A stretch of DNA of 64,000 nt, taken from positions 62,001 through 126,000 of the forward strand of contig NZ_FNBG01000006.1 of NCBI RefSeq assembly GCF_900102215.1. The letters are read 5' to 3'. A program made the position numbers and the translations under genes. Below are positions 8,391 to 39,350 of the stretch, piece after piece; position 1 is the stretch's first letter; each line of letters opens with the position of its first letter. The stretch is from Fontibacillus panacisegetis. GTDB taxonomy: Bacteria; Bacillota; Bacilli; Paenibacillales; Paenibacillaceae. Below the pieces are notes generated by a model. It saw only the letters and a program-made list of their open reading frames with translations, ran no database searches and was not told where the DNA came from.

Positions 8391-8756
8391 CTATTCTTTT
8401 CTCTCTGCCGTATCATGGAGAGTATGATAAACATCTAATGCCTTATTTAAGAAGTCTTCGATTTCTTCGCGTGTCTTGCGCAGCTTATTTACAAAACGAA
8501 CGAGTTCGCGTCCGTCCGCATAAGCCACAAAGCTTGGAATTCCTAAAATATTCTGCTCCTGGCTAACATCGCCAACCTTATCTACATCCACTTCAATCAA
8601 AGTAAGTCTGTCACTATATTTCTCTTCAACCTCTGGCATAAAAGGATCAATATACTTGCAATCTCCGCACCAGTCCGCCTTGAATACGGCCACGATCAAA
8701 TTGCTGGATTGAATGCTTACATTAAATTCTCCCGCTGAATTCATCTGCTTCATCAT
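8391..8756 (-). CDS. Thioredoxin-family protein
   Basis: 121-residue thioredoxin fold protein (YtpP-like). The active site is WCGDCK (residues ~30-35), different from the WCGPC of TrxA, and the cis-proline block reads LGIPSFVAYADGRELVR. Three near-N-terminal Mets compete. ATG at 8756 has AAGGA six bases upstream, whereas the 8762 ATG abuts that site. It is a likely cytosolic disulfide reductase or bacillithiol-linked redoxin; the substrate is unknown. Monocistronic. Confidence 0.85.
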   Translation of the reverse strand: MMKQMNSAGEFNVSIQSSNLIVAVFKADWCGDCKYIDPFMPEVEEKYSDRLTLIEVDVDKVGDVSQEQNILGIPSFVAYADGRELVRFVNKLRKTREEIEDFLNKALDVYHTLHDTAERKE

Positions 8757-8885
8757 CTTCATTCCTTTCTATGTTTGACTATCTAGTCGAATCTTCTCCT
8801 TAAGTCAACCAAAATGAGGAGTGGAAGTCAAATTATTGGCCATACTTGTAATATCATTCAGCTAAGTAAGAAGTGAGGTGAGTCC

Positions 8886-10322
8886 ATGGTGGAAAACCCA
8901 CAAGATCCGCAGAATCCTGAATCACAATCCGGCATCAAGCAATTCATCCGTCGACTGCCTGCTGCAATTAGTGAGATTGTGAAAGGCAAAGCCGCAGGCA
9001 TCGCGGATTCCAGTCGACTTCGTGAGGAGAGAATTACTTTAGATTGGAACGAGGCATCTGCCAGAACGGTCATTTCTGAAATTGAGGACATTCTCCGTCG
9101 TGGGGTCACTTCAAGATCAGAGGAAGAAACCCTGAACGATGCCGATCGTGCACTTGTTGAAGAAATTTCACTCGCAACCAGCCGGGCAGGGATTAGCAAC
9201 ATTACTCGCACAGAAGCTTATTTGGCCAGCTATCAAGCCTACCCGGAATTGCACTGGGCTTTTCTTGCTCACATGGTATCACGTAACGCTGGCTGGAATA
9301 TGACCGACCTAAGAGGAAGCAGAGTATGCGATATATTGGACGAAGAGACCAAGCGCACGATGTATCGTTTTATTGAGCGCAGCAATGCGCTCATTTTTCA
9401 GGATGCTTATCCGCAGCTACTCCTGTATATAAAGAGCAGGGAGCTCGGGTCAAGCCGATTTCATCTCCTGTCTTATTTTCACGTTTCCAGATTTATGCGC
9501 CCTTTTTGGGAACGATTTTGGATCGACCGGGGAAGTACCCTTCTAACGGTTGGACTTATAATTAACGAGCAAAATTACATTGAAAAAAGAGTCATTCGCC
9601 ATCCGTATTATCAGAAATACGTTACGGATAAAGCGCATTTTCATATCAGCAGTATTACAGGGCTGAATCAGGTTGTATTTCCGCTCATGGAGGATTGCGA
9701 GTGTGTGCAGGCTGGCAAGGAGGACGAGGCTGCTAATAGCTTTAGCCCGACATCTGAACAGGAGGATGCTGCATCGGATGATGAGATTAGCGCTGAGGCC
9801 ATATGCCAAGCAGCATATGGCCTGCTGGCAGAGGGCTGCCGAGGAGACGGCGAAGTGCGCCGCCTTGCGGGGCGTGTCGTCTCCGACTTTGGCAGCCTTA
9901 CGGCCCGCATCGCGTTAGGTAAAAACCTGTACGCGATGCTCATGGGTCTGCGCGCCGTGCGCAGCGGCGCGCAGCGCTTCGCCGAGAGCGTGCCGCACAC
10001 CGGCTCGCGCGAGGACTATTGGCCGGAATTCTTCACGGCCAATGTAAAAGAAGCTCTGACCCCCTCGTTGCAGGGGGCAGAGCTTCTTAAAGGCGAGACG
10101 CTGCCGCCGGGCGAGCGTCTCTATAGCCCCAAGCTGCTTGACGCTTGGGGCGACACGCCCTACGAGCCAATCACTCGCGAGGATTGGCTCAAGGACTGGG
10201 GCGCGCTGGATGGCATCAGCCCGCCCCAGTCGCCTTACCTGTGCGACATCAGTCGCGAGCACAGGCTCGGCATCTTAAAAACCGCGCTCGCCCACGATGC
10301 CGTGGCCGACGAGCCGACCTAG
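8886..10322 (+). CDS. DUF2515 family protein (YppC-like) with hairpin-filled 3' half
   Basis: 478-residue protein of unknown function. The DUF2515 hallmark is NITRTEAYLASYQAYPELHWAFLAHMVSRNAGWNMTDL (residues ~100-140), followed by helical segments YHVSRFMRPFWERFW and FHISSITGLNQVVFPLM. An acidic low-complexity linker (residues ~275-300) separates a C-terminal block ending in SPKLLDAWGDTPYEP and SPYLCDISREHR. GAGGTG lies 5 nt before the ATG. The last ~525 bp of the gene differ from the rest: GC-rich and made of consecutive inverted repeats (see the repeat feature and finding). The stop TAG at 10320-10322 overlaps the stop of the convergent murJ. Confidence 0.85.
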   Translation: MVENPQDPQNPESQSGIKQFIRRLPAAISEIVKGKAAGIADSSRLREERITLDWNEASARTVISEIEDILRRGVTSRSEEETLNDADRALVEEISLATSRAGISNITRTEAYLASYQAYPELHWAFLAHMVSRNAGWNMTDLRGSRVCDILDEETKRTMYRFIERSNALIFQDAYPQLLLYIKSRELGSSRFHLLSYFHVSRFMRPFWERFWIDRGSTLLTVGLIINEQNYIEKRVIRHPYYQKYVTDKAHFHISSITGLNQVVFPLMEDCECVQAGKEDEAANSFSPTSEQEDAASDDEISAEAICQAAYGLLAEGCRGDGEVRRLAGRVVSDFGSLTARIALGKNLYAMLMGLRAVRSGAQRFAESVPHTGSREDYWPEFFTANVKEALTPSLQGAELLKGETLPPGERLYSPKLLDAWGDTPYEPITREDWLKDWGALDGISPPQSPYLCDISREHRLGILKTALAHDAVADEPT

Positions 10323-10401
10323 CCGTTCGACGAGTTCGTCTGGCTCGAACGTGACCGCTGCAGCCGCATGAGCGGTGACAGCAGCTTGCGAAGCGGCTTC
10401 G
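9796..10401. repeat. Tiled array of about 16 inverted repeats within coding sequence
   Basis: Consecutive stem-loops, arms in parentheses: 9796-9823 (11 bp), 9827-9840 (5), 9843-9884 (7), 9907-9939 (9 plus inner 4), 9948-9974 (9), palindrome 10004-10013, 10018-10043 (8), 10048-10088 (11 plus inner 6), 10095-10121 (8), 10126-10151 (9), 10164-10190 (9, loop containing CTCGCGAG), 10194-10231 (10 plus inner 4), 10238-10265 (7 plus 3), 10268-10302 (7), 10324-10351 (7), 10354-10376 (6), 10389-10401 (5). Gaps between units are mostly 3-14 nt. Each stem has a different sequence, so it is not a tandem repeat. The array covers the end of the DUF2515 gene and the end of murJ. Confidence 0.9.
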
Positions 10402-11962
10402 GATAGCTTGCCAGCTCGTCCTTGCGAACAACACGAAGAATTACCAGCATCACCGGGTACAGCGCAACGACCACCGCGCCTACAATACAGCAGGTAAGGA
10501 AAAAAGCAACTCGGCCCGGCATAAATGCTTCCATCTGAATACCTGCTTGATTTAATCCATAGCCTACACCAGACAATACAAGAATCGTTGCAATAAAGCC
10601 TGGCCAACGGTTGCCCATGATGGAGAACGGTACTATTTTTTTCATGGTTCTGATGTTCAAAATCGTAATAACCAGGAAACAAAGCCCTGTCGCAGTCACG
10701 ATTCCGTAAATTCCCCATAAAGGAGCCAAAGCATAACTCCCAATCAGCTTTACCACAATACCGATCGCAACGTGAACCATTGATCGGGTCGCTTTATTGA
10801 TCCCTAGCAAAATCGAGTTGCTGGTCATCATCGTGATCTGGAATATCGTCATCAAGGTTAATAACGCAATAATGCTGCTTCCGTCACGCGTACTGAACAA
10901 AAGACCATTCACAGAATACGATGCTGTAGCCAGGGCCAAAATAATCGGCATCCCGGTCAGTACAGACACGCGCATCGCTAGGGTTACCTGACTCTTTAAA
11001 TGATCCTTATCCCCTCTGGCAAACGCAGCCGAAATAATCGGTACCAGCGACTGGCTCAATGCGATAGCCAAAATTGGCGGAATACCTGCAATCATTTGCG
11101 CCCGATTACCTAAAATTCCCAGCACATATGTTGCTTCATCCGATCCGATATATCCTGTCAATAATGGTTTTAATATCGAGCTATCAATGAAATTAACAGC
11201 AGGTATTGCCATGGCCGTAAGCACAATAGGAATAGACAGCTTGAAAATTTCAATGTAGATTTTTTTATAGGGCAGCTTGGCATCGTCAGATAATGTCCCC
11301 GGTCGATCCACTTTATCCTTACGCCGCACTTTTGCGTTATACACCAGCATGACAATTAGAGCAGCTCCCCCGCCGATTACAGCGCCAAATGTAGCTCCGG
11401 CAGCAATCTTTTCTCCGGAAAAACCCCAATGATAGAACAAAAATGCAAGTATAATACCTGTAGTAACACGAACTATTTGCTCAATAACCTGAGATACCCC
11501 GCCGGCAATCATAATATTTCTGCCTTGCAGATATCCGCGAATAATCGCAATCAATGGAAAAATCAGCAGCGCCGGTGCTAGAGCCCGGATTGCTACAGCC
11601 GATTCTGGAATACGCGTTACCGCTGCATAATATGGAGCCATGGTAAACAACAGAACGAACATAACCACTCCAGCAACTGCGGCAAACATAAGCCCTGCAT
11701 GATAAATCCTTCTCGCTTCTAAAGGGTTGTTAAGCGCATGCCGCTCGGACACCATTTTACTTAACGTGCTGGGAATTCCTGCAGTTGCTAATGTTAGCAA
11801 CATAAAATAGGCCCCATTTGCTTGCACATATGCAGCATTACCTACATCCCCCAAAATATGCTCAAGCGGTACACGTTGAAACAATCCAAGCACTCTCGCG
11901 ATCAACGCAGCACCCGCAAGGATAAGCGTACCTTTTATAAACGACTCCTTATTGGTGGACAA
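10319..11962 (-). CDS. murJ: MurJ-type lipid II flippase / polysaccharide biosynthesis protein
   Basis: 547-residue polytopic membrane protein of the MOP/MVF superfamily, closest to B. subtilis YtgP (MurJ). The N-terminal FIKGTLILAGAALIARVLGLFQRVPLEHILGD block is diagnostic, and about 14 hydrophobic spans follow. Its role is to flip lipid II for peptidoglycan synthesis; SpoVB-like paralogues act in spores, so exact substrate is inferred. Two TTG codons compete for start. The 11962 TTG has AAGGA seven bases upstream and is preferred over 11968. Its stop shares CTAG with the convergent DUF2515 gene, and its last ~80 bp carry the end of the hairpin array. No ordinary terminator is seen. Confidence 0.88.
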   Translation of the reverse strand: MSTNKESFIKGTLILAGAALIARVLGLFQRVPLEHILGDVGNAAYVQANGAYFMLLTLATAGIPSTLSKMVSERHALNNPLEARRIYHAGLMFAAVAGVVMFVLLFTMAPYYAAVTRIPESAVAIRALAPALLIFPLIAIIRGYLQGRNIMIAGGVSQVIEQIVRVTTGIILAFLFYHWGFSGEKIAAGATFGAVIGGGAALIVMLVYNAKVRRKDKVDRPGTLSDDAKLPYKKIYIEIFKLSIPIVLTAMAIPAVNFIDSSILKPLLTGYIGSDEATYVLGILGNRAQMIAGIPPILAIALSQSLVPIISAAFARGDKDHLKSQVTLAMRVSVLTGMPIILALATASYSVNGLLFSTRDGSSIIALLTLMTIFQITMMTSNSILLGINKATRSMVHVAIGIVVKLIGSYALAPLWGIYGIVTATGLCFLVITILNIRTMKKIVPFSIMGNRWPGFIATILVLSGVGYGLNQAGIQMEAFMPGRVAFFLTCCIVGAVVVALYPVMLVILRVVRKDELASYPKPLRKLLSPLMRLQRSRSSQTNSSNG

Positions 11963-11989
11963 CGACAATTCCTTCTTTCTTGTTCCTCA

Positions 11990-14285: not shown

Positions 14286-15238
14286 TGCTCCGCCCCCCTT
14301 TCTACACCTTGAGTGCTTTGGTGAATCACAACCATTTCCATTTTGCCTCGAAGCTCATTACGAGTACGGAGACGACGTATCCATTTGGCGAGAAGGCCTC
14401 GATTAGGCGCAAATGTAACCGAAACAAGAAACAGTAACGTTGCTGCCAGCACAGTAACAGGCCCAGTTGGCAAATTGGATACCGTTCCGCTAATCAGCGT
14501 TCCGGTCACTCCCGACAATGCTCCAAAAACTCCTGCCATGATGACCATAATGCCTAACGAATCCGTCCAATACCTTGCCGCAACTGCCGGAGTAATAAGC
14601 AAGGCTGCAACGAGTACTACACCGACCGCCTGAATCCCTACAACGACTGCAACAACTGTCATTAGAAGCATCAATTGTTCTAAGAGTGCTACCTTCATGC
14701 CCATCCCTCTTGCAAACCCGGGATCAAAGCTAATCAACTTAAACTCCTTAAAAAGAAGAGCACACACGATAACCAGTATGAGCGATACAATCCCCATCAG
14801 ATACACATCTGTCATGACCATCGAAGCAGCCTGCCCGAACATATACTTATCCAGCCCACTCTGATTTCCGTTGCCGCTGTGCTGAATTTTGGTCATCATC
14901 ACAACGCCAGCCCCGAAGAAGACAGACAATACAATACCCAAAGCAGCATCCTGCTTGATTCGCGAATAACGAGTAATAGCATGAATACCGAATGTAGCCA
15001 ATGCACCAGATATGATCGCACCAATCATAAACAATCCTACAGATTTAACACCACTCAGCATAAAAGCGATACAAATCCCCGGTAAAGCTGCGTGAGCCAA
15101 TGCATCCCCTAACAGACTTTGCTTGCGTAAGAATGTAAAGGATCCAATCACTCCGCTTCCAAGCCCCAAGAGCAGAGACCCCATCAGAATCCACTGCATA
15201 TTGGGGTCCATAAGCCAATTTATCAATGTAGATAGCAT
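14282..15238 (-). CDS. mntC: Manganese ABC transporter permease MntC
   Basis: 318-residue ABC-3 permease, paralogous to MntD. Family blocks GSFTFLRKQSLLGDALAHAALPGICIAFML, FKEFKLISFDPGFARGMGM and VGVVLVAALLITPAVAARYWTDSL are clear. The C-terminal ~35 residues are a charged cytoplasmic tail (RRLRTRNELRGKMEMVV). It lies between mntB (4 nt gap) and mntD (overlap). Confidence 0.9.
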   Translation of the reverse strand: MLSTLINWLMDPNMQWILMGSLLLGLGSGVIGSFTFLRKQSLLGDALAHAALPGICIAFMLSGVKSVGLFMIGAIISGALATFGIHAITRYSRIKQDAALGIVLSVFFGAGVVMMTKIQHSGNGNQSGLDKYMFGQAASMVMTDVYLMGIVSLILVIVCALLFKEFKLISFDPGFARGMGMKVALLEQLMLLMTVVAVVVGIQAVGVVLVAALLITPAVAARYWTDSLGIMVIMAGVFGALSGVTGTLISGTVSNLPTGPVTVLAATLLFLVSVTFAPNRGLLAKWIRRLRTRNELRGKMEMVVIHQSTQGVERGAEQ

Positions 15239-28281: not shown

Positions 28282-28306
28282 ATTCACCCTCCCTTCCAAT
28301 ATAGTT

Positions 28307-28320
28307 CCCTATATATAGGG
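28307..28320. promoter_or_regulatory. 14-bp perfect palindrome in the leader of the unknown gene
   Basis: CCCTATATATAGGG, located just downstream of the predicted start site and 26 bp upstream of the ATG. Candidate operator or RNA hairpin. Confidence 0.55.
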
Positions 28321-28330
28321 CTTGCGTCTC

Positions 28331-28359
28331 ATTATATGCTATATATATACAATTATCAA
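28331..28359 (-). promoter_or_regulatory. Sigma-A promoter of the unknown gene at 27859
   Basis: Minus strand TTGATA (28359-28354), 17 bp, TATAAT (28336-28331). Confidence 0.75.
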
Positions 28360-28492
28360 CATATAAAAGCAAAAATGGGTAATAATTACTATGTAAATTT
28401 TACTAATATTTCTTTTTATTTCACAGTTCGACAAAGTCATTTTTATTTTGACATTATTTCTGACGAAATTTCTGATGCAAACAATATAAAAA

Positions 28493-28893
28493 GGGGCTGT
28501 CCCAAAAGTAGGGTTAGTGTCAAAACTAGAAATAGCGGTGCAAGGAAGATGATCCCTGCACCGCTTGATCCTACCAGTAATTGTATGACCGTATCTCATG
28601 TGTAATAGTGTCATGATGCGGAATTCCTGAAATTCCTGCAAATGTGCAGGCTTTGTTTATGTAAAGCCCCTAAATGCCCTAAATTGCTGTAAATGTGCAG
28701 GCTTTCTCTAAGGATTCTCTTCAAACTAGTCTATTCTGAACCATATTCCTGCATTTTTGCAGGCTTTTGTTCATCCTTTCATAGCTACTTTAAAAAAACT
28801 GTATTTTTGCATCCTTTTCCTGATATCTTGCCTTTACACTGCTAAACAAGAAGCGTCCCTCAAAGTTATCTTAGATAACTTTGAGGGACAGCC
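28493..28893 (+). repeat. Interspersed MITE-like repeat, copy 1 (full length, ~400 bp)
   Basis: Begins GGGGCTGTCCCAAAAGTAGG and ends GAGGGACAGCCTCC, so the termini are inverted copies of GGCTGTCCC. Inside are an AGCGGTGCA/TGCACCGCT hairpin, several CCTGCAnnnnTGCAGG motifs, and a terminal perfect 16-bp-arm hairpin GTCCCTCAAAGTTATC / GATAACTTTGAGGGAC. No convincing ORF. Near-identical copies lie at 38989-39350 and 47892-48195. Confidence 0.9.
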
Positions 28894-28905
28894 TCCTTAA
28901 AGCAG

Positions 28906-37871: not shown

Positions 37872-38930
37872 TTGAGATCTTATGTTCAGTTCGGCAAAAA
37901 AAGTATCCGCTGTCTCATTTGCACAGTCATGATCTCTTTCCTGTGCACCATTTCCGGATTTGGAGCAGTTGCAGCCGAAGCTCCTGGAACTCCAGATTCA
38001 ACACACAGCAAAAGTGTTTACGAACTAAGACGAAGCCTGTACGAGGAAATCGGTATCCTCACGCAAGTTCCATGGTATTGGCTCGCCGCAGTCGATCAAT
38101 ATGAGCGTACGATAACACCTCGTGGCAAGGTAGCGAAAAAGGATAAGGAGCGACTGGTAGGACTTCAATTTAAGGATGAAGTATGGGCCGGCGCACTCAA
38201 TCCGAATCCCGGTGATATGAATCCTGCGACGATCAGTCTGTTTGGGGGACTTGGCAGAGACGCTACTGCTGACGGAAATGCAGATCCCGGAAATGACCGG
38301 GACGCCTTATTTACAATGGCTTCCTATTTGCTTGGCTTTGGCTTTGATGATGAGGATTTTCGTATCGCTTTGTGGCGGTACTACCAAAACGACTCTTCTG
38401 TCTCCCGAATCCGTCAATTCGCCAAAATTTACAAAACCTTTAACCAGATCGACCTGTCAGCCAGCGCATTTCCGCTTCCCGTGAAGAGTATCTACACTTT
38501 CCGGGATACTTGGGGAGATCGACGGGGATGGGGCGGGCTGCGAACTCATGAAGGAACAGATCTTTTCGCCTCTTATGGAGTTCCTGTTCGCAGCGTCTGC
38601 TACGGAATTGTTGAGACTAAAGGCTGGAACCCTTACGGCGGATGGCGAATCGGTATTCGCGACCTGTCCAACCGATATCATTATTATGCCCATCTACAAG
38701 GCTACGAAAAAAATATTGAAATCGGTGATGTAGTGAAGCCTGGACAAGGAGTTGGCTGGGTAGGCAGCAGTGGGTACGGTCCTCCCGGAACGCAAGGCAG
38801 ATTCCCCCCTCATCTCCACTACGGAATATACCGTGACACCGGATCAACCGAGTGGGCGTTTAATCCTTATCCACTGTTACGTCAATGGGAGAAGGAAGAG
38901 TGGGTTCGTATCAAGAAAGGAAAGAAGTAG
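37872..38930 (+). CDS. lytH: M23 peptidase LytH-like (L-Ala-D-Glu endopeptidase of spore cortex)
   Basis: 352-residue exported peptidase. TTG at 37872 is chosen because AAAGGAGG lies ten bases upstream. An N-terminal hydrophobic segment (CLICTVMISFLCTISGFGAVAAEA) acts as signal/anchor. The LasA/M23 zinc site is THEGTD (~225) and HLH in PPHLHYGIY (~314). The N-terminal ILTQVPWYWLAAVDQYERT and NPDM-type block match YunA/LytH rather than other M23 proteins. In B. subtilis LytH trims cortex peptides under sigma-K. Its position next to lipA is as in B. subtilis. Confidence 0.88.
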   Translation: MRSYVQFGKKSIRCLICTVMISFLCTISGFGAVAAEAPGTPDSTHSKSVYELRRSLYEEIGILTQVPWYWLAAVDQYERTITPRGKVAKKDKERLVGLQFKDEVWAGALNPNPGDMNPATISLFGGLGRDATADGNADPGNDRDALFTMASYLLGFGFDDEDFRIALWRYYQNDSSVSRIRQFAKIYKTFNQIDLSASAFPLPVKSIYTFRDTWGDRRGWGGLRTHEGTDLFASYGVPVRSVCYGIVETKGWNPYGGWRIGIRDLSNRYHYYAHLQGYEKNIEIGDVVKPGQGVGWVGSSGYGPPGTQGRFPPHLHYGIYRDTGSTEWAFNPYPLLRQWEKEEWVRIKKGKK

Positions 38931-38935
38931 GGACA

Positions 38936-38959
38936 AAAAACTGCAAACCTACAGTTTTT
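38936..38959 (+). terminator. Terminator of lytH
   Basis: AAAAACTG / CAGTTTTT stem with an 8-nt loop, 6 nt after the stop. Confidence 0.8.
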
Positions 38960-38988
38960 ATGAGCAGCAACACTCTCCATAAAGAAAA

Positions 38989-39350
38989 GGGGTTGTCCCA
39001 AAAGTAGAGTTAGTGTCAAAACTAGAAATAGCGGTGCAAGGAAGATGATCCCTGCACCGCTTGATTCCGCCACATTCCATGACTGTATCTCATGTGTAAT
39101 AGTGTCATGATGCGGAATTTCTGAAATTCCTGCAAATATACAGGCTTTGTTTATGTAAAGCCTCTAAACGCCCTGAATTGCTGCAAATGTGCAGGCATTC
39201 TCTAAGGATTCTCTTCAAACTAGTCTATTCTGAACCATATTCCTGCATTTTTGCAGGAATATGGTTCATCCTTTCATGGCTACTTTAAAAAAACTGTATT
39301 TTTGCATCCTTTTCCTGATATCTTGCCTTTACACTGCTAAACAAGAAGCG
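38989..39350 (+). repeat. Interspersed MITE-like repeat, copy 2 (right end missing)
   Basis: Starts GGGGTTGTCCCAAAAGTAGA and follows copy 1 almost base for base through CTAAACAAGAAGCG. It then stops before the terminal GTCCCTCAAAG hairpin, so one terminus is lost. It carries the CCTGCATTTTTGCAGGAATATGG variant. Located between convergent lytH and yunB. Confidence 0.88.

Follow-up and report, generated by a model that had tools for sequence, protein, structure and literature searches.

The window analysed here, a 64,000-nucleotide stretch of Fontibacillus panacisegetis DNA, contains a DUF2515 gene that is flanked on both sides by leftward genes (Table 1). The downstream neighbor is the convergent murJ gene, whereas the genes upstream are named by their resemblance in sequence as thioredoxin-like and CtaA-like. 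No NCBIfam model matches the product of the DUF2515 gene, and a word search of open-access papers did not return the name DUF2515. A row of almost contiguous stem-loops begins about 500 bases before the stop codon and takes in a variable linker as well as the conserved C-terminal domain of the DUF2515 protein. Most of its stems fall within the part of the protein matched by PF10720, and both arms are coding.

Table 1. Genes and palindromic features at the DUF2515 locus (positions in the window).
Feature	Position	Strand	Basis or remark
DUF2515 gene, 478 aa	8886–10322	+	Pfam PF10720, E 5e-68, residues 105–442
murJ/SpoVB-like flippase gene, convergent with DUF2515	10319–11968	-	Pfam MurJ and Polysacc_synt
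Palindrome island, stem-loops almost contiguous, GC about 0.64	9796–10331		Stem search, GC, fold z-scores
Stem of 11 bp, 9796–9806/9813–9823, in the variable linker	9796–9823		Outside the aligned region, which begins at 9843
Conserved stem 9907–9915/9931–9939, phase 3	9907–9939		Perfect-stem search and alignment
Conserved stem 9948–9957/9965–9974, phase 2	9948–9974		Alignment; inner 8 pairs common to species
Conserved stem 10018–10025/10036–10043, phase 1	10018–10043		Alignment
Conserved stem 10048–10058/10078–10088, phase 1	10048–10088		Alignment; consensus of 13 pairs
Conserved stem 10095–10102/10114–10121, phase 2	10095–10121		Alignment
Conserved stem 10126–10134/10143–10151, phase 1	10126–10151		Alignment
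Conserved stem 10164–10172/10182–10190, phase 2	10163–10191		Alignment
Stem 10194–10208/10217–10231, 15 nt, one mismatch	10194–10231		Stem search and alignment
Candidate template-switch footprint, four adjacent bases	10197–10200	+	Arm now complementary to the opposite arm
Stem 10238–10244/10259–10265, 7 bp	10238–10265		Most members of the P. timonensis group have a 15–16 bp stem here

Perfect stems of at least 8 bp cover 0.281 of the patch at 9796–10401, compared to a mean of 0.014 over the window (SD 0.031; 600-base windows), and the six densest 600-base windows in the 64 kb all overlap this patch. The next-highest hairpin densities, at 38901–39300 and 28301–28900 (coverage about 0.11–0.17), occur in sequence that is not GC-rich. 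With loops of up to 24 nt allowed, nine perfect stems of 8–11 bp were found within 9700–10600, and a looser search returned 18 pairs, two of which are overlapping palindromes. The original prediction of about 16 repeats thus holds if 7-bp and imperfect stems are counted, and falls to nine for perfect stems of at least 8 bp. The six arm pairs that it quoted are all present as perfect complements, and one of them, 10194–10203/10222–10231, extends to 15 nt with a single mismatch. Codon-preserving shuffling, the comparison on which that prediction had staked itself, left the array unexplained: none of 1000 shuffles of the patch reached the observed 0.324 (mean 0.019, maximum 0.137). The array also folds far more stably than expected, with z-scores of -11.1 for the plus-strand RNA, -11.4 for the minus-strand RNA, and -10.4 for DNA, such that the two strands fold equally well. 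Each of the helix phases 1, 2, and 3 is found three times, so that no reading register is clearly favored.

The patch was correctly described as a GC-rich open frame within the DUF2515 gene, and its stems indeed lack a common sequence. There are no direct repeats of at least 12 nt inside the array, and its only match in the genome is itself, which rules out repeat expansion. The further claim that the array continues across the junction with murJ stands only in part. After the stop codon the stems become weak, with 7–9 nt in the window, and the tail in this region varies among species in the two groups of relatives that were aligned there. At three loci (L016, L019, and L020) the gene is followed by an intergenic region instead of an immediate murJ junction, and this region contains copies of a CCTGAACCAAAGGGATAAT-like unit together with a conserved CACCATTATCCCGT block.

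Most of 30 congeneric homologues, the window included, have hairpins at matching places with matching spans. In a set of 80 named homologues the array is found in 19, with a coverage of the C-terminal domain of 0.15–0.51; the remaining 61 have at most 0.10, and this number includes L199 (the same genome as L027), in which part of the array is replaced by N. Bearers include P. vini, P. anaericanus, P. faecis, P. oralis, P. macerans, P. timonensis, P. fonticola, P. barengoltzii, and Fontibacillus phaseoli. Species were labelled array-bearing or array-free by the presence of hairpins, and one congener labelled array-free (L030) has a single 15-bp stem in the domain and exceeds its own shuffles (0/200). 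In each of 21 array-bearing species, none of 200 synonymous shuffles reached the observed density. Of the six array-free congeners, five fall into a single clade that excludes the bearers in an N-terminal domain tree, and the remaining one, the AT-rich G029, is placed inside the bearers on a long branch, which suggests by its position that this lineage lost the array. A single origin of the array in the ancestor of one Paenibacillus group is likely on this phylogenetic pattern; it falls short of proof because the N-terminal tree was rooted only for drawing and because most bearers and the array-free group meet in one unresolved fork of a dnaE tree. Two members of the genus (G034 and G059) have no DUF2515 match at all.

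Conservation of the stems was assessed in a codon alignment of 27 of the 30 loci (21 with the array and 6 without), from which L013, L024, and L027 had been excluded beforehand. These three loci show apparent insertions inside the array. The insert in L013 (2407–2596) ends in, and that in L024 begins with, sequence that we take to resemble a Nextera transposon end, and L027 carries a run of N; the three were rejected as real insertions on these grounds. Eighty consensus pairs, defined as those formed by at least half of the bearers, a choice that favors conserved sites, are Watson–Crick in 1604 of 1680 cells in the bearers, compared to 233 of 480 in array-free species (16 of the 480 being gaps). 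The stem at 9907–9939 is invariant in the 21 bearers except for its innermost pair, which varies in 10 species, and one variant beside it. The inner part of the stem at 10194–10231 is clade-wide, whereas its outer part is private to the lineage of the window among the species aligned. The conservation is most apparent in the comparison of L018 and L020, which differ at 42% of N-terminal third positions yet have 80 of 80 stem pairs in common.

At third codon positions, diversity in the bearers is 0.126 where two third positions pair, 0.070 where a third position pairs with a first or second position, 0.306 at unpaired array sites, and 0.524 in the N-terminal domain, whereas array-free species show 0.54–0.60 in all classes. 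The difference between third–third pairs and unpaired sites has a p value of 0.009, with pairs counted from both sides, and for the consensus pairs unpaired third positions are 2.4 to 4 times more variable than paired ones. In a check free of the bias in choosing consensus pairs, stems were defined from one reference species and scored in the others. With all four references, paired sites were less variable at all codon positions and 77–89% of the pairs were kept; for in-clade references, paired third positions were 1.7 to 3.6 times less variable than unpaired ones. The covariation that the original prediction had proposed to look for in related species is present as well, with 21 compensated cells against 4.4 in shuffles, a number reached by none of 1000 shuffles. 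Several of the compensated pairs are transversions (T–A/G–C/A–T). One pair of the stem at 10048–10088, for example, is T–A in 17 bearers, G–C in three, and A–T in one, and the second-position base shifts the residue from Glu to Ala or Val while pairing is kept.

The protein sequence follows the same division. Residue differences among bearers amount to 0.092 in stem codons, 0.250 in unpaired codons, and 0.291 in the N-terminal domain, compared to 0.331, 0.299, and 0.345, respectively, in array-free species. Residues that are fixed in bearers and different in array-free species occur at 8 of 66 stem codons, 3 of 54 unpaired array codons, and 6 of 271 N-terminal codons (Fisher test, stem versus N-terminal, p 0.0016; whole array versus N-terminal, p 0.005), the difference between stem and unpaired array codons being small. 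Formation of the array therefore probably altered some conserved residues of the DUF2515 domain, to judge from this comparison.

To place the array in a wider context, islands of similar density were surveyed in samples of 353–400 kb from each of four genomes of the genus, together with 400 kb from another genus of the family and 400 kb from another family of the order. Counts exclude the DUF2515 locus, which was deliberately included in each sample of the window's genus. Thirteen further islands were found in about 2.35 Mb, compared to a mean of 0–0.1 per sample after local shuffling. Eleven of them are GC-rich tiled arrays, which amounts to one to three GC-rich islands beyond DUF2515 per sample of about 350–400 kb. 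The two exceptions are an AT-rich stretch (L122) and a tandem palindromic repeat in the other genus of the family (L284), where seven short palindromes of the form CAAGTAGC-taaa-GCTACTTG follow each other at 14393–14770 in steps of about 50–100 bases. Islands occur in dnaE, mutL, and cheB (NCBIfam; the dnaE island of G019 was named by likeness) and in genes that look, by their sequences, like purN, a rhodanese gene, a glycoside hydrolase gene, a cobalamin gene, and others; they often, though not always, lie in low-complexity linkers. Eight islands were compared with synonymous shuffles. In six coding ones, none of 200 shuffles reached the observed density (in both frames shown or in the main frame); for the AT-rich island, 18 of 200 did so in one frame and none of 200 in another; and the L284 island, at 14351, is a repeat outside long frames. 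E. coli yielded no island in 250 kb, which is no proof of absence because fewer than two would be expected there at the Paenibacillus rate.

Hairpins in the linkers of mutL and dnaE are less durable than those of DUF2515. The mutL linker, which seems to be under weak protein constraint, keeps 72–83% of pairs between related groups and 35–39% to two farther references; its unpaired sites vary 1.1 to 3.1 times as much as its paired ones with in-clade references, and variation at mutL consensus pairs carries the same bias toward conserved sites as that at DUF2515 consensus pairs. The dnaE linker hairpins turn over between species, with 48–57% of pairs kept and paired sites about as variable as unpaired sites. 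In about one third of 30 species, the dnaE linker is not clearly above its shuffles, and one (L247) lies below them. Conservation of hairpins was accordingly rejected as a general rule, being barely apparent in dnaE and lost to farther references in mutL; the DUF2515 array is the frozen extreme and the best conserved island found.

Based on these data, a simple model would suggest that DNA template switching builds the palindromes and that arm-to-arm copying, together with double coding, freezes them. We consider this model, with template switching as its inferred enzyme-level event, to have about an even chance of being correct. During replication, a nascent strand would fold back on a weak inverted repeat and briefly copy the opposite arm, leaving a perfect stem, and repeated events over several hundred bases would produce a row of hairpins without a common sequence. 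The DUF2515 row would have formed in the ancestor of one Paenibacillus group, changing conserved residues in the process. Continued arm-to-arm copying would then remove mismatches, and, since every stem base is read in two codons, few joint changes would be tolerated. Arm copying rather than selection is taken here to be the main keeper of the stems.

The model is consistent with the scarcity of imperfect stems. For each perfect stem there are 0.14 one-mismatch stems in DUF2515, 0.49 in 11 other islands, and 1.00 in dnaE linkers, compared to 3.05 in islands after shuffling and 2.14 in genome background (100 kb). It is also consistent with the pattern of clustered changes, defined as at least three neighboring changes and polarized by the consensus of the other bearers. 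Of 72 distinct clusters, none destroys a stem of at least 8 bp and four create one, a number reached by 1 of 300 null sets (null mean 1.0). Three create stems of at least 10 bp (null mean 0.46; 3 of 300), whereas the contrast is weaker at a threshold of 9 bp, with three observed (null mean 0.74; 13 of 300). The candidate footprint in the window reads TGGG where relatives have CACA or ACCA, with changes of His or Thr to Trp and of Ser to Gly, and makes a 15-base arm the complement of the inferred ancestral opposite arm, which differs from the present arm by one base. In the P. timonensis group, a Glu codon was replaced by one for Ser, and a 15–16 bp stem formed in most members.

Other observations are less readily accommodated. 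Loop inversion is a hallmark of template switching, and none was found in the oriented DUF2515, dnaE, or mutL sets. By our own reasoning, arm copying alone would let both arms drift jointly at the neutral rate; the conservation of the stems counts against arm copying alone, because such free drift predicts more variation. GC-biased arm copying was rejected as a cause of the freeze, as the GC content at third positions is no higher in the stems than in stems of shuffled sequences (0.912 versus 0.938 in mutL; 0.780 versus 0.879 in DUF2515). Template switching also leaves the placement of the islands unaccounted for. All the data can also be fitted by a mixed history in which mutation made the stems and selection then kept them.

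The most serious alternative is that the 3' half of the DUF2515 message is a selected row of hairpins that acts on message lifetime, slows ribosomes, or binds a protein. The reduced variability of paired third positions, which persists with stems defined from single references, would be expected of such a structure, as would the stable fold of the plus strand (z -11.1); the antisense strand, however, folds equally well (z -11.4). Compensatory pairs fit a structured RNA and are expected under arm copying too. RNA hairpins would tolerate G–U pairs, and G–U variants do exceed A–C variants by column pair (13 versus 5; two-sided sign test, p about 0.10), four of the 13 being G–U pairs in one hairpin of L008, the sequence of which is identical to that of P. 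faecis. One-mismatch stems of DUF2515 bearers comprise three with G–U, none with A–C, and 12 others. Counted by cells, however, the two classes are about equal (16 versus 18 of 1680), and one-mismatch stems show 9 versus 9 in dnaE linkers and 2 versus 4 in other islands, such that the excess gives weak support to an RNA role and at DUF2515 only. The same search applied to E. coli 16S and 23S rRNA (about 4.4 kb) returned no perfect stem of at least 9 bp, which indicates that RNA structures do not typically reach such perfection. Unrelated genes and protein linkers contain similar arrays, residues that are conserved in other species differ in the array, and no Rfam family corresponds to it, the only match over 8500–11000 being below threshold (20.3 bits versus 66; E 0.73).

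Selection on mRNA structure, one of the options in the original prediction, therefore draws on stems that are more conserved than unpaired sites and on a weak G–U excess, while the equal folding of the antisense strand speaks against it; we regard it as a real but rather unlikely explanation. Template switching at quasi-palindromes, another of those options, emerged as the best supported. It is favored over mRNA structure because of strand symmetry, the perfection of the arms with few imperfect stems, the recurrence of islands in unrelated genes, and the clusters of changes that create stems.

Strand symmetry would equally suit a functional DNA element, in which extruded hairpins are recognized by a protein in replication, recombination, or chromosome organization. 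The stems are conserved in sequence and position across a group of species, and there are one to three more GC-rich islands per sample of about 350–400 kb, both of which point in the same direction. Recognition by a protein is difficult to reconcile, however, with stems that have no 12-nt repeat in common and with islands of different genes that share no sequence by eye. Related species keep the DUF2515 gene without the array, and the dnaE hairpins turn over between species. A DNA element is therefore improbable.

Still less probable is the proposal that the hairpins protect the convergent DUF2515 and murJ transcripts from duplex formation or read-through, or form a cluster of terminators. The two genes are opposed, and the hairpins reach their junction in the window. 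Of 30 homologous loci in which murJ was looked for, it was found in 27 and was not within the available stretch in three; all six array-free congeners examined keep the convergent murJ, whereas in several array-bearing species the end of murJ is several hundred bases past the stop codon and the array is still in the coding domain. An array that begins some 500 bases ahead of the stop codon is also poorly placed for this purpose, and the antisense-protection option of the original prediction is not supported. Finally, chance arising from high GC (raised to about 0.64) and biased codons, or a fold-back artefact of assembly, for which islands of dnaE and mutL at some contig ends and adapter-like sequence at some loci might speak, has a negligible probability, as it is refuted by the codon-preserving shuffles of the window and of each of the 21 species and is at odds with the same stems in assemblies of many species.

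Rickettsia palindromic elements (RPE) and REP-type repeats are repeat families with a shared sequence, some of them inside genes. The DUF2515 stems, in contrast, share no sequence, and the array is single-copy. Hairpin clusters that act as intrinsic terminators are reportedly sought between operons; the array is like them in its neighboring hairpins and differs in lying within coding sequence, about 500 nt before the stop. No described bacterial case of such hairpin arrays was found in the part of the open-access literature that was covered, and the accessible portions of a survey of 118,019 genomes for inverted repeats yield neither Paenibacillus nor coding regions by term search (PMC13155455).

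The original statement that no described system has this form comes close, with one qualification: the mitochondrial genes of Nematomorpha are similar in kind. These genes contain perfect inverted repeats, both arms of which encode conserved protein, with many palindromes per genome, few of them imperfect, that reach up to 284 bp and are dynamically gained and lost (PMC6649704). Besides function, the authors of that report consider arm conversion and template switching as an alternative explanation, and a "binary identity," in which stems are either perfect or absent, is read as arm conversion (PMC6649704). The DUF2515 arms are likewise coding and perfect, with few imperfect ones (ratio 0.14); unlike those of Nematomorpha, they are bacterial, tiled every 30–40 nt or so, and shared and frozen over a group of species (PMC6649704). 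Long arms of tens to hundreds of base pairs, as in Nematomorpha, were not found, the arms here being 8–11 bp and up to 17 bp in relatives.

In Saccharomyces cerevisiae, template-switch events at inverted repeats reportedly affect 39 genes and include spacer inversion, and homogenization of the arms leads to multi-base and amino-acid changes (PMC8604942). Multi-base, residue-changing homogenization of arms is proposed for the DUF2515 array as well, whereas a dense array common to many species and the lack of spacer inversion set it apart from the yeast events as reported there (PMC8604942). In RNA genes, template switching is described as making perfect stems in one event, with multi-base compensatory changes keeping them (PMC8794818). 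The history proposed for the DUF2515 stems is of the same kind, although the present case differs from these hairpins in concerning protein-coding DNA with no assigned RNA family (PMC8794818).

More generally, a conserved domain that is largely palindromic represents a natural experiment for separating mutation-driven palindromes from selection on RNA structure. Compensatory changes arise in both cases, so that comparative studies of RNA often fail to tell the two apart. Should arm copying be the correct reading, covariation in coding regions would not by itself prove an RNA function, and some of the amino-acid changes that look adaptive would be by-products of replication. We tentatively propose, with slightly less assurance than an even chance would warrant, that Paenibacillus and related genera harbor an undescribed class of coding palindrome islands, in which replication-linked arm copying overrides protein conservation and then freezes the sequence.

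The islands also have a practical aspect. In several assemblies they coincide with contig ends or adapter-like sequence, so that reference genomes may be wrong there. One contig carrying dnaE (G013:C2, region L245:2310–2418) runs near its end into adapter-like sequence; the motif at this site, like that in L013, is presumably Nextera-like. The dnaE and mutL frames are broken up near the linkers, or the contig stops at that place, in G003, G004, G012, G023, G030, G034, and others. For the split dnaE frames, sequencing error seems likelier than a true frameshift because dnaE is probably essential. DnaE has a second insertion-prone site, at about query residue 153, where G001, G006, G035, and other congeners carry extra codons, about 99 of them in G001 and none in the genome of the window.
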